From Candidatus Omnitrophota bacterium (GTDB lineage Bacteria > Omnitrophota > Gorgyraeia > Aquiviventales > Aquiviventaceae), in contig JACPRA010000024.1 of assembly GCA_016190215.1 (NCBI GenBank), positions 1 to 58,503 of the forward strand: 58,503 nucleotides of DNA, given 5' to 3'. Of this stretch, positions 2,982-53,793 are shown one piece after another (within the stretch, counting starts at the first letter, position 1; each line of letters starts with the position of its first letter). The position numbers and the translations under genes were made by a program. Under the pieces are notes generated by a model. It saw nothing but the letters and a program-made list of their open reading frames with translations. It did no database searches and was not told the DNA's origin.

Positions 2982-4658
2982 TTAGTGGGGTTTTACCAGA
3001 GCGCGAGAGAGAAGTTCGCGCGCATGCGCCAGCGCATCATCAAGCTGGCTGAAGACGCGCTCTTCCCCGATCTGCGAAAGCAGGCCGGATTTTTCCAGGG
3101 CGATCCTCGGCTGCGCCTGCACGTCGGACAAGAGAAACGGCACATGGTGCTTCAGGGAGCTGTGATGCTGTTCGCGCAGCACTTGCAGCCCGGTCGCATC
3201 CATGGCCGGCACCTGGCGCATCCGCAGGATGCGCACCTTGGGCGCCTGGCTGACGATGCTCATGGCCTCCTTGAACTTGTAGGAGGCGCCGAAGAAAAAC
3301 GGGCCGGTGATTTCGTAGACTTCCACCCCGGGCGGCACGCGGCGCGTGCCGATGGCGTTGGGATCGTCCACGTCCTCCTCATCCACGAACTCGCTGGTGA
3401 CGACTTCGACGTTCGTCACTTGCGCCATCCGCCACATGAAGAGGAACGCGGAGAGCACCATGCCCACCTGGATCGCCACCGTCAGGTCCACCAGCACCGT
3501 CAGGCCGAAGGTGGCCAGCAGCACCGCCACGTCGCTGCGCGGGCTCTTCAGCAGCGTGGCGAACGAATGCCATTCGCTCATGTTGTAGGCGACCACCAGC
3601 AGGATCGCGGCCAGACACGGCAGCGGGATCAAGACCACCCAGCGCCCGACGCACAGCAGGATCAGGAAGAGGACCAGCACGTGCACGATGCCGGCCACCG
3701 GCGTGCGGCCGCCGTTGTGCACGTTGGTGGCGGTGCGGGCGATCGCGCCGGTGGCCGGGATGCCCCCGAAGATCGGCGAGCAGATATTGGCCACGCCTTG
3801 CGCCACCAGCTCCATGTTGGAGCGGTGCTTCCCGCCGATCATGCCGTCCGACACCACCGCGGACAACAGCGCTTCAATCCCGGCCAAGAGCGCGATCGTC
3901 ATCGCGCTGGGCATCAACGCCCGGATCGCCCGCAAGCTCACGGGCGGAAGGGTTGGGGCCGGCAACAGATGGGGGATCGCCCCGAACCGGCTGCCGATCG
4001 TCTCCACCGGCAGATGCCACCACTGCACCACGACGGTCGCCACCACCAGCGCGACCAGCGGGCCGGGGACGCGGCGGGATACCCGCTTCCAGAGCAGGAT
4101 GAGCAGCAGCGAACCGAGCGTGACCGCCCCGGCCCAGGGATTCCAGTGCGCCAGCGCGTAGCGGTAGGCCCCCCATTGGGCGAGAAATTCCGCCGGCACG
4201 GACGCGAGCTGCAGCCCCAACGCGTCTTTGACCTGGCCGGAACCGATGATGAGCGCGATCCCGCTCGTGAACCCGACGATCACCGGGTACGGGATGAACT
4301 TGATCGCCGACCCGAAGCGGGCGATCCCCATGATCACGAGAATCACCCCCGCCATCAGCGTGGCGATTTGCAGCCCGACCAGGCCGTACTGCTGCACGAT
4401 GTGCGCCACGATCACGACGAACGCGCCGGTGGGCCCGCCGATCTGCACCCGGCTGCCGCCCAGGACGGAGATGATGAACCCGCCGATGATCGCGGTGAAA
4501 ATCCCCCGCTCGGGAGAGACGCCGGAGGCGATGGCAAACGCGATCGCCAGGGGCAAGGAGACGATGCCGACGATCAGCCCGGCCAGGAGGTCCGAAAAAA
4601 ATTGCTCGCGCGTGTAGCCGCGCAGGGTGGTGAAGAGTTTCGGTTTGAGGATAGGCAT
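2982..4658 (-). CDS. SulP-family sulfate permease with C-terminal STAS domain
   Basis: [65 protein letters not shown]-like C-terminus. Confidence 0.93.
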
Positions 4659-50449: not shown

Positions 50450-51664
50450 TCATCGCACCACGTTCACCATCCCGAACAGCGGCAGCAGGATGCTGGCCAT
50501 GATGAACGCCACCATGCCGCCCATGAAGATGAGGAACACCGGCTCCACGAACGCCATCGCCCGTTTGATGCCGTGCATCACCAGCTCGTCATAATGCTCC
50601 GCGATCTGGGCCAGCATGTGGTCCAGCGTGCCGGACGCCTCTCCCACCGCGATCATCTGGACGACCATCGGCGGAAATTCCTTGCTGACCCGCAGCGGAT
50701 CCGCCAAGCTCCCGCCCTGCCGCACGCTGGTTTGAACGTTCTGCACGACGTCGCCGATGAGGACGTTGCCGCAGGCCTCCTGCACGATTGCCAGCGACTC
50801 CAGAATCGGCACCCCGCTCGACAAGAGGGTCTCCAGCACCCGGGCGAAGCGCGCCAGCGCCACCTTGCGCGCCAGCGGGCCGATGACCGGCAGGCGCAGG
50901 ATCAGTGTGTCGTACTGGCGCCGGCCCGGCGGGGTCTGCGCGTAGGCGCGCAGCGCCCAGATCACCCCCGCCGCGCCCCCGATCACCGCCGGCCACCACT
51001 GGCGCAGAAACTGGCTCACCTGATAGAGCACTTTGGTCGGCAGCGGCAGCGGGACCTCCGCCTCTAGAAAAATCTGCATGAACTTCGGGATCACCCCGCC
51101 TACCAGCACGCCGGCCACGACCACGCTCACCGCCAGCAAGAAGGCGGGATACGTGAGGGCGGTCTGCAGTTGGCGCCGGATGTCGGCCTGGCGCCGGGTG
51201 AATTCGGAGAGCCGGCGCAGCACTTCATCCAGCTTGCCGGAGGCTTCCCCCGCGCGCACCATGTTGATGAAAATTGTGGAGAAGATGCGGCGGTGCCGCG
51301 TCAGCGCCTCGGAAAATCCCAGGCCGCCTTCGACGCTGCGCGCCACGTCTTGCACGGCGCGGCGCAGCCCCGGCGCTTCGGTTTGCTGGACGAGCGTATC
51401 CAGCGCCGTCACCAGCGGAATGCCCACCTGGATCATCTTGGAGAGCTGCACGTTGAAGAGCACCAGGTCGTCATACCGCACCCGGCCGCCGCCCCGCGGC
51501 GCTCCAGCCGCAGCGGCGGCACCCGGGGGCAGCTCCCGCGCCTGGGTCACCAGGTAGCCCATGCGCTTGAGCTGGTCGGCCAGCGCCTCGTGCGTGGGGG
51601 CGGCCAGCGTGCCGGTGACAGACTTTCCCCGCTCATCGCGAGCAGTGTATCGATAGTTTGGCAT
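50450..51664 (-). CDS. pilC: PilC/GspF inner-membrane platform protein
   Basis: MPNYRYTARDERGKSVTGTLAAPTHEALADQLKRMGY...DLVLFNVQLSKMIQVGIPLVTALDTLV; MVGEASGTLDHML-type motif. Confidence 0.93.
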   Translation of the reverse strand: MPNYRYTARDERGKSVTGTLAAPTHEALADQLKRMGYLVTQARELPPGAAAAAGAPRGGGRVRYDDLVLFNVQLSKMIQVGIPLVTALDTLVQQTEAPGLRRAVQDVARSVEGGLGFSEALTRHRRIFSTIFINMVRAGEASGKLDEVLRRLSEFTRRQADIRRQLQTALTYPAFLLAVSVVVAGVLVGGVIPKFMQIFLEAEVPLPLPTKVLYQVSQFLRQWWPAVIGGAAGVIWALRAYAQTPPGRRQYDTLILRLPVIGPLARKVALARFARVLETLLSSGVPILESLAIVQEACGNVLIGDVVQNVQTSVRQGGSLADPLRVSKEFPPMVVQMIAVGEASGTLDHMLAQIAEHYDELVMHGIKRAMAFVEPVFLIFMGGMVAFIMASILLPLFGMVNVVR

Positions 51665-51671
51665 CGTCTTC

Positions 51672-52126
51672 GTCGCTCGTCGCTGGTTGCTTGTTGCTAG
51701 CACTACAGGGAGCTATTTGAGACAACGAATCAAGTTTGTGAGCATTTTGGATTCGTGCTGAATCAACTCTAAGAGGGTTTCCTTTGTGATCTCCTCCACA
51801 TACCCTAACGCACATGCGATCTCACACTGGGTTTCGAGTTCCGCACAGGAGCCTAAAGCCACGTAGAGCAGTTGCCGATACTCCTTGTTGTGTCTTCGGT
51901 TAAACCCTTCTGCAATATTCGAGGGAATGGACACCGCCGCCCGGCGCATCTGACCGGCCAGTCCGTACTCCTCACGTCTCGGGAATAATTCGGTCATCTC
52001 GTAGATTTTTCGGACAATCTCCATTCCATTCCTCCAGACATCCAAGTCCCGGAAGTCCTTGATCATCCTTGGCATCGCCTATCCTGTTCACCATCCACTA
52101 GCAACGAGCAACCAGCGACGAGCGAC
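51672..52126. mobile_element. Putative S23/IVS-like element: four-helix-bundle ORF between 29-nt inverted repeats
   Basis: GTCGCTCGTCGCTGGTTGCTTGTTGCTAG (51672-51700) vs CTAGCAACGAGCAACCAGCGACGAGCGAC (52098-52126), one mismatch. Confidence 0.7.
51713..52075 (-). CDS. Four-helix bundle protein (23S rRNA intervening-sequence / S23 type)
   Basis: IKDFRDLDVWRNGMEIVRKIYEMTELFPRREEYGLAGQMRRAAVSIPSNIAEGFNRRHNKEYRQLLYVALGSCAELETQ. Confidence 0.93.
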   Translation of the reverse strand: MPRMIKDFRDLDVWRNGMEIVRKIYEMTELFPRREEYGLAGQMRRAAVSIPSNIAEGFNRRHNKEYRQLLYVALGSCAELETQCEIACALGYVEEITKETLLELIQHESKMLTNLIRCLK

Positions 52127-52131
52127 TGCAT

Positions 52132-53793
52132 CTATTCTAATTGAGTGACGCGCAGCACTTCTTCCAAGGTGGTGACCCCGGCGCGCACTTTGGCCAGGCC
52201 GTCTTCGCGCAGGGTCCGCATGCCGCCGCGCCTGGCCGCCTCGCGGATGACATAGGCCGGCTGCTTGGCCACAATGGCGTTCTTGATCTCCTCGGTCACC
52301 CGCAGCAGCTCGAAGATGCCGATCCGGCCTTTGTAGCCGGTCTGGTGGCAGGCCGCGCATCCCGTGCCCCGCGAGAGCTTGGTCGCCCCGTCCAGCGGCG
52401 TGTCCCGCAGCACGTGGGAGGCCGGCTGGTAGGTTTCTTTGCATTTGGAGCAGATCACGCGCACCAAGCGCTGCGCGATGATCCCGGCCACGGAGGAGGC
52501 CACCAGGAACGATTCGAGGCCCATGTCGAGCAGCCGCGCGATCGCGCCGGGCGCGTCATTCGTGTGCAGGGTGGAAAAAATCAAATGGCCGGTTAAGGCG
52601 GCCTGGATGGCCACCTCCGCCGTCTCCCGGTCGCGGATCTCGCCCACCATGATGACGTCCGGGTCCTGCCGCAGGAACGAGCGCAGCGAGGAGGCGAAGG
52701 TCATATCCGCTTTCGGGTTGACCTGCACCTGGTTGACGCCGGGCAGCTGGTATTCCACCGGGTCTTCAATGGTGAGAATGTTGCGCGCGGGATCGTTGAT
52801 CAGATTCAGGGCGGCGTACAACGTGGTCGTTTTACCGGAGCCGGTGGGCCCGGTCACCAGCAGGATGCCGTGGGGCAGATGGATGAGCTGCTCCACCTGG
52901 GCCTGCAGCGCCGGGTCCAGCCCCAGCTGGGGCAGCGACAGCAGCATCTGCGAGGCGTTCAAGAGCCGCAGCACCACGGTTTCGCCGAACTGCGTGGGGA
53001 CGGTGGACACGCGCAGGTCCACCTCGTGCCCTTCCATCTTCAGGCGGAACCGCCCGTCCTGTGATTTGCGCTTTTCGGCGATGTCCAGCTTCGAGAGCAC
53101 TTTGATGCGCGAGACGATGGCGGAATGCAGCGGCAGCGGCGGGCCCTTCACTTCGCGCAGGATGCCGTCCACCCGGAAGCGCGTCCGCAGCACGCCGTCG
53201 CCGGGCTCCAGGTGAATGTCGCTCGCCTGGTCCCGCACCGCCTGCAGGATGAGCTGGTTCACCAGCCGGATCACCGGCGCATCCTCGGCCAGCGCCTCTT
53301 CCGCTTTAGGCAGGGCGGCTTCGTTGATGGCATGCGCGGCTTCCTCCACCCCCCGCGCGCCGTAATACTGGTCAATGGCCTGCCGGATGCCGGTGGCGGT
53401 GCTCAGCACGGTTTTCACGGCGCACTTGGTTCGCAACCGCAGTTCATCCAGCGCAAAGAAATTGAGCGGGTCGTCCATCGCCACGGTGAGCGTGTCGCCG
53501 ATCTTGAACACCGGCACGAGGGTGTGCTTGCGCGCCAAGGCTTCGGGCACGAGCTGCACGATTTCCGGGCGGATCAAATAGGTGGAGAGATCAATCGTGG
53601 TCATGCCCAGCTGCTCAGCCAACAGGTTGGTCAAATCCTGCTCGCTGATCACCCCTTGCTGGATGATGGCCTGCTTCAGGGAGATGCTGGATTTGGTGGC
53701 CTGTGCTTGGGCGGCTTGCACCTGGGCTGGCGTCAAGATGCCCTGGGACACCAGCAGCTCAGGCAACGGTTTCGCGCTTCGAATGAGGGCCAT
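52132..53793 (-). CDS. pilB: PilB/GspE secretion ATPase
   Basis: GILLVTGPTGSGKTTTLYAALN, GEIRDRETAEVAIQAALTGHLIFSTLHTNDA; CSKC...CAAC zinc motif. Confidence 0.95.
   Translation of the reverse strand: MALIRSAKPLPELLVSQGILTPAQVQAAQAQATKSSISLKQAIIQQGVISEQDLTNLLAEQLGMTTIDLSTYLIRPEIVQLVPEALARKHTLVPVFKIGDTLTVAMDDPLNFFALDELRLRTKCAVKTVLSTATGIRQAIDQYYGARGVEEAAHAINEAALPKAEEALAEDAPVIRLVNQLILQAVRDQASDIHLEPGDGVLRTRFRVDGILREVKGPPLPLHSAIVSRIKVLSKLDIAEKRKSQDGRFRLKMEGHEVDLRVSTVPTQFGETVVLRLLNASQMLLSLPQLGLDPALQAQVEQLIHLPHGILLVTGPTGSGKTTTLYAALNLINDPARNILTIEDPVEYQLPGVNQVQVNPKADMTFASSLRSFLRQDPDVIMVGEIRDRETAEVAIQAALTGHLIFSTLHTNDAPGAIARLLDMGLESFLVASSVAGIIAQRLVRVICSKCKETYQPASHVLRDTPLDGATKLSRGTGCAACHQTGYKGRIGIFELLRVTEEIKNAIVAKQPAYVIREAARRGGMRTLREDGLAKVRAGVTTLEEVLRVTQLE

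Follow-up and report, generated by a model that had tools for sequence, protein, structure and literature searches.

The locus described herein raises the question of why a gene for an S23-type protein, enclosed by complementary ends in the manner of the intervening sequences (IVSs) of bacterial rRNA, lies between two protein genes of a pilus operon, and whether it arrived there as a mobile element. In the window, i.e. the whole stretch of 58,503 nt (58.5 kb) of Candidatus Omnitrophota DNA analysed in the present study, an element of 455 nt between the outer ends of two arms fills the gap between pilB and pilC, and the S23 open reading frame (ORF) is co-directional with both host genes (Table 1). 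The arms, of 29 nt each, are 97% complementary with one mismatch, lie 397 nt apart and constitute the only inverted repeat in the window of at least 20 nt with no more than one mismatch and within 1 kb. Thus, both the enclosure of an S23-type ORF by near-perfect inverted repeats and its fit to the pilB-pilC gap, as described in a preceding sequence-only reading, were confirmed, and one feature is added to that description, namely that each arm consists of four tandem 7-nt units (heptads). The flanking duplication suspected in the same reading (GCATC) stands in so far as GATGC is present on both sides; this pair is a possible target duplication, not a proven one. In the predicted RNA fold the arms form the closing stem (-168 kcal/mol for the whole element and -54.7 for the arm duplex), the loop has a GC content of 50% compared with 66% for the window, and no Rfam family matched either the element or the window.

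Table 1. Features of the S23 element and its host genes, in positions of the window
Feature	Position	Strand	Remarks
Upstream host gene pilB, for the type IV pilus ATPase	52132..53793	-	Gene end at 52132
GATGC direct repeat, upstream boundary	52128..52132	-	Overlaps last base of pilB stop codon
Upstream arm (5' of S23)	52098..52126	-	Four heptads, GTCGCTC GTCGCTG GTTGCTC GTTGCTA, plus one base
S23 / 23S_rRNA_IVP four-helix-bundle protein, 120 aa	51713..52075	-	Alternative start 52066
Downstream arm (3' of S23), complementary heptads	51672..51700	-	
GATGC direct repeat, downstream boundary	51661..51665	-	Overlaps pilC start codon
pilC (GspF/PilC), downstream host gene	50450..51664	-	Gene start at 51664

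The encoded protein is clearly a member of the S23 family, matching PF05635 (2.6e-36, 124.5 bits, cut-off 33.8) and TIGR02436 (3.3e-34, 117.4 bits, cut-off 24). An AlphaFold2 model, with the window and named-genome S23 sequences as the input alignment, is a four-helix bundle with a mean pLDDT of 96. The best structural match of this model is XCC0516 of Xanthomonas campestris (2gsc, TM 0.91), followed by BT_0352 (2rld) and then by Avd of diversity-generating retroelements (DGRs), both alone and in ribonucleoproteins. Avd is a pentamer, and the presence of five chains in each of the crystal entries 2gsc and 2rld is consistent with a pentameric S23. The dN/dS of S23 was 0.27 between the window copy and that of a relative from a different genus (G026) and 0.07-0.12 in three older comparisons, values indicating that the protein is maintained under purifying selection; a very recent pair on two plasmids (dS 0.012) gave 0.86, with too few changes to interpret. 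No S23 match was found in phages.

Comparison of pilB-pilC junctions among relatives, which the sequence-only reading had recommended as a search for an empty site, yielded such a site in a congener (G001; PilC 82% identical, pilC dS 0.575 against the source genome, G000). The gap between the two genes is only ~8 nt there, and the site is therefore empty; the junction reads TGAGACCATAGATGCC, which is not close enough to prove a target duplication of the window copy. In G026 the same element occupies the pilB-pilC junction, with an identical left boundary, and the dS between G026 and the source genome is 0.29 for S23 compared with 1.24 for pilC and 1.32 for pilB, so that the element at this junction is much younger than the split of the hosts. 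The 455-nt segment thus behaves as an insertion at the junction of the pilB stop and the pilC start, because the congener lacks it and the copy in the other genus postdates the divergence of the hosts by far. The element has therefore either been acquired repeatedly at one site or moved into it horizontally. At the same junction another relative (G023) has an ORF-less heptad hairpin of other units, placed between two copies of ATGCC.

Filled and empty sites were also found as pairs of complete plasmid sequences in cyanobacteria. At a first site, plasmids of Trichormus variabilis and Scytonema are filled, with a GTAAT direct repeat flanking the insert, and the same site is uninterrupted in the ~97% identical plasmids of Nostoc carneum and Fremyella; a Nostoc plasmid (C052) contains an internally deleted remnant of the element. 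At a second plasmid site, two Nostoc plasmids are filled, three of those examined are empty and two have ORF-less hairpins of other units, and two junctions of yet another operon show a reciprocal pattern of filled and empty sites among three Nostoc plasmids. With empty sites both in the congener and on these plasmids, the earlier suggestion of a mobile element is borne out, and the mobility of the S23 element is well supported. The direct repeats at the ends are a clean GTAAT in one set, are start-codon-associated (ATGCC, ATGC, ATG) in three cases, are confounded by the heptad in one and are absent in two, and the evidence for a target-site duplication of fixed length is inconsistent. An ORF-less insert with AATTCAA-type heptads was observed in Nostoc C057_H (L209:1074-1414), at a site that on other plasmids holds GGGAACA-type S23 elements or nothing.

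The ends were surveyed at 80 S23 loci in named genomes of many phyla, including Omnitrophota, Nitrospirota, Planctomycetota, Bacteroidota, Clostridia, Patescibacteria and the archaeal Methanophagales, with shifted positions on the same contigs as controls and the control 99th percentile as the threshold. Period-7 repetition exceeded this threshold in both flanks at 61% of 79 named loci, other lags did so at 0-4% except for lag 8 (18%), and the inverted-repeat score exceeded it in 73% of the loci. Inverted period-7 arrays on both sides were present at 45 of the 75 scorable S23 loci (60%) compared with 5 of 163 control genes (3%); ~40% of the S23 loci thus lack ends recognised as heptads. The arrays have a median of 4.4 units per arm. 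Their unit sequence varies from locus to locus, but the inward-reading unit keeps a near-invariant G: when 79 upstream-arm units were aligned by rotation, the consensus was T-[A/C]-G-T-N-A-N, with the G at 96% and an information content of 2.96 bits compared with a control mean of 2.07 and a maximum of 2.17. Similarity of the S23 proteins was correlated with similarity of their heptads (Mantel rho 0.16, p 0.002), a weak correlation that is partly expected from physical linkage. A scan of 16 further S23 loci, among them most of the loci whose neighbouring genes are distant, gave no rRNA match. The proposal of an IVS-like S23 element outside rRNA is supported. The flanks at L126, L144, L155 and L160 have 8-nt or irregular periods, perhaps a sister type of end, and a KSB1 bacterium has two Acido-Lenti-1 RNA matches (L166:3992-4037 and 4565-4610) downstream of an S23 gene. 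Several junctions, with gene names read from the sequence, are shared: hemCD-hemE has S23 elements in four genera (L133, L142, L173, L170), and others lie at ABC exporter genes (L131, L154, L181, L141) and DNA polymerase genes (L132, L147). Their recurrence in different genera or phyla suggests preferred or well-tolerated sites.

The sequence-only reading had also proposed a search of the source genome for the 29-mer and for further S23 copies; such copies were found, as were ORF-less hairpins with related ends. Three PF05635 genes are present in the assembly (979 kb, 79% complete), one in the window and the others on contigs C22 and C36, and all three are flanked by inverted heptads, each of its own type: GCRACNA at the window, AGCASAC on C22 (arms of 32 nt, 91%) and GGGGCRR on C36, the last read by eye from the sequence. 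Similar ends also occur in short ORF-less hairpins, e.g. around C9:4551-4625. In 307 kb of stretches from this genome, 23 inverted pairs of period-7 arrays were detected and none at periods 4-6 or 8-12; two pairs enclose S23, and the other 21 contain no ORF, their loops being 3-110 nt long. S23 was the only gene observed between inverted heptad ends, and in the listed pairs the G-containing unit is on the inward-reading arm. Of four ORF-less hairpins compared with the congener, two have no counterpart there at the syntenic site. No ORF-less heptad hairpins were found in 360 kb from three S23-free genomes, nor in 140 kb sampled from each of the S23-rich genomes G037 and G051; the hairpin load therefore does not simply follow the S23 count.

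Both components of this element have been described separately. The 23S rRNA IVS of Coxiella burnetii has an S23 ORF with tandem heptads (GACAGAT) beside it and is cut by RNase III in its stem (PMC4990558). The window element resembles it in the S23 ORF, the complementary ends (~28 bp in Coxiella), the total length of ~430-455 nt and the heptads adjoining the ORF, but it lies between protein genes of an operon, not inside an rRNA helix, and its genome also carries many ORF-less copies. In the register of the present consensus, GACAGAT reads CAGATGA and fits, as does the GGGAATC repeat of Xanthomonas, read as TCGGGAA, and XCC0516, the S23 protein of solved structure, comes from the GGGAATC-bearing species X. 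campestris. Reportedly, Vioque described in 1997 short tandemly repeated heptads (STRR) within rnpB. The Nostoc/Calothrix STRR and the Xanthomonas repeats are tandem 7-nt units that are mainly intergenic, and GGGAATC occurs 186 times in Xcc, with 70 convergent inverted pairs and mostly four units (PMC4692102). By these published descriptions, the arrays found here are alike in their tandem 7-nt units, about four in number, and differ in being the ends of an insertable unit; no general association of heptameric repeats with mobile elements was reported, and a term search of that paper found no mention of S23 (PMC4692102). The TAACTGA repeats of Beggiatoaceae (PMC4679880) are off-consensus and almost never form inverted pairs, and are therefore probably unrelated. 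In a literature search that did not extend to bioRxiv or to the majority of subscription journals, no publication was found that connects S23 genes located outside rRNA with inverted heptads.

Herein, we propose that the segment probably belongs to a family of small mobile elements in which an S23 pentamer reads the heptads and pairs the ends for an enzyme acting in trans. First, each member would consist of two tandem heptad arrays placed head to head, with the G-containing strand always inward, and between them either an S23 gene (overall length ~450 nt) or no ORF (then roughly 60-180 nt). Second, S23 would be expressed from the transcript of the host operon, and the putative pentamer would bind a heptad array with about one heptad per subunit and the invariant G as a contact; recognition of this kind would account for the conservation of the period, of the G and of a number of ~4-5 units in spite of drift elsewhere in the unit. 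Third, S23 bound to both arrays would bring the ends together for a mobilising enzyme at the DNA level, for which a Y1/HUH transposase is a candidate, and the ORF-less derivatives would be mobilised likewise. The rRNA IVSs might then be those insertions that are tolerable in rRNA owing to their removal by RNase III. Several results count against the proposal: the lack of a transposase inside the elements and of heptad pairs around Y1 genes, the S23-bearing relatives in which no Y1 was detected, the inconsistent direct repeats, the share of S23 loci without recognised heptads, the absence of ORF-less hairpins from the sampled parts of G037 and G051, and the weakness of the correlation between protein and heptads. 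More broadly, and tentatively, S23 may define an unrecognised minimal class of mobile elements in bacteria and some archaea, in which the pentamer reads heptads at both ends and has a direct part in mobilisation, with STRR, GGGAATC and other dispersed heptads as its ORF-less descendants and rRNA IVSs as one of its niches; many of the heptameric repeats of bacteria may derive from the S23/heptad element, which has a real chance of forming a separate class. For S23-encoding rRNA IVSs, both origin and mobility have been described as unresolved (PMC4990558), as has the meaning of the over-represented heptameric repeats of bacteria (PMC4692102). These two old puzzles are joined by the present data, in which heptads are the ends of an insertable unit able to carry S23, and the filled and empty sites in cultured cyanobacteria, the consensus of the unit and a candidate reader whose family includes solved structures make them approachable by ordinary binding and mobility experiments.

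The possible, though somewhat doubtful, alternative is that the elements are MITE-like passengers, whose inverted heptads are used by a trans-acting transposase, probably of the Y1/HUH type, and in which S23 is cargo that takes no part in movement and has another function, such as that of an RNA-binding regulator. No transposase was found inside the elements, and the predominance of ORF-less over S23 copies in the source genome accords with this explanation, being MITE-like in the many short copies with terminal inverted repeats (21 in 307 kb). Y1 copy number also co-varied with that of S23 (rho 0.59; partial r 0.52 when rve and genome size are controlled for), S23 count being neither independently correlated with rve nor correlated with reverse transcriptase (RT), in cross-genome statistics that ignore phylogeny; in this, and in the short non-coding intergenic hairpins, the family resembles REP/REPIN elements with their Y1-type RAYT. 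However, the ends are locus-specific heptad arrays and not one fixed terminal repeat as in MITEs and REPINs, and the longer members carry S23, the only gene seen between such ends. Nor are the ends shared with an autonomous transposon as those of a MITE would be: no inverted heptad pair flanked any of 12 Y1 loci examined, so that a heptad-flanked Y1 gene was rejected as the autonomous partner, and no rve gene was detected in the source genome. Moreover, heptad unit type tracks S23 type, proteins of the S23 family are also encoded by rRNA IVSs (PMC4990558), and Y1 was not detected in three S23-bearing relatives, two of them incomplete. The Y1/HUH transposase is the leading candidate mobiliser, albeit a weak one.

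An element acting at the RNA level, as suggested by the sequence-only reading, would be a hairpin excised by RNase III and spread via an RNA intermediate that is either reverse-transcribed or reverse-integrated. RNase III excision is known for rRNA IVSs (PMC4990558), and S23 elements are in sense with their operon in a ratio of 53:3 (loci where both neighbours agree), although the need for the operon's promoter explains this bias equally well. S23 also shares the fold of Avd of DGR ribonucleoproteins (4dwl, TM 0.78; 8ub7, TM 0.77), but the window protein scores below the cut-off of the Avd family model (20.7 compared with 80 bits) and no RT was found in its genome. RT (RVT_1) was likewise absent from the S23-rich, nearly complete G037, G040 and G041; it was undetected in most S23-bearing genomes and present in 10 of 59 relatives without association with S23, and was rejected as the mobiliser. 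Arms conserved as RNA would be expected to show G.U mismatches in excess of A.C; on the S23-sense strand, 80 G.U and 111 A.C were counted, and selection of the arms for RNA pairing is thus not supported. Movement at the RNA level is therefore unlikely, and this part of the earlier reading is so far not supported. In G051, a weak S23/Avd-like ORF (C3:137619-137915) lies ~500 nt from an RVT_1 gene (138413-139099), and the two probably form a DGR in this relative.

A fixed device for operon control, in which regulation or processing of the pilB-pilC transcript is the reason why the hairpin and S23 are retained, any mobility being ancient or incidental, would account for the position exactly at a gene junction, the purifying selection on S23 and the recurrence at junctions such as hemCD-hemE in four genera. 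It is nevertheless quite improbable, as the congener lacks the element, the same element type occurs in functionally unrelated operons, and filled and empty plasmid sites coexist. The operon-splitting role envisaged in the sequence-only reading is possible but has so far gained no support, because the arm mismatches show no selection for RNA pairing, and hairpins without an ORF are found at sites of the same kinds. Cutting by RNase III stays plausible, since the Coxiella IVS is cut in such a stem (PMC4990558), and a cut in the hairpin, separating pilB from pilC, may occur incidentally.

Finally, heptameric repeats are over-represented in bacteria generally (Rehm 2015, PMC4692102), but an artefact, with heptads arising by slippage and inverted pairs around S23 by chance or assembly noise, is extremely unlikely given the excess over control genes, the lack of inverted pairs at other periods in 307 kb and the filled and empty pairs in complete plasmids. 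Apart from the heptad elements, a stretch of ~50-400 nt on C17 of the source genome (~52550-53090; L215:12550-13090) matches more than 20 places in the congener at 66-95% identity, and this stretch is another multi-copy repeat or a repeated domain.
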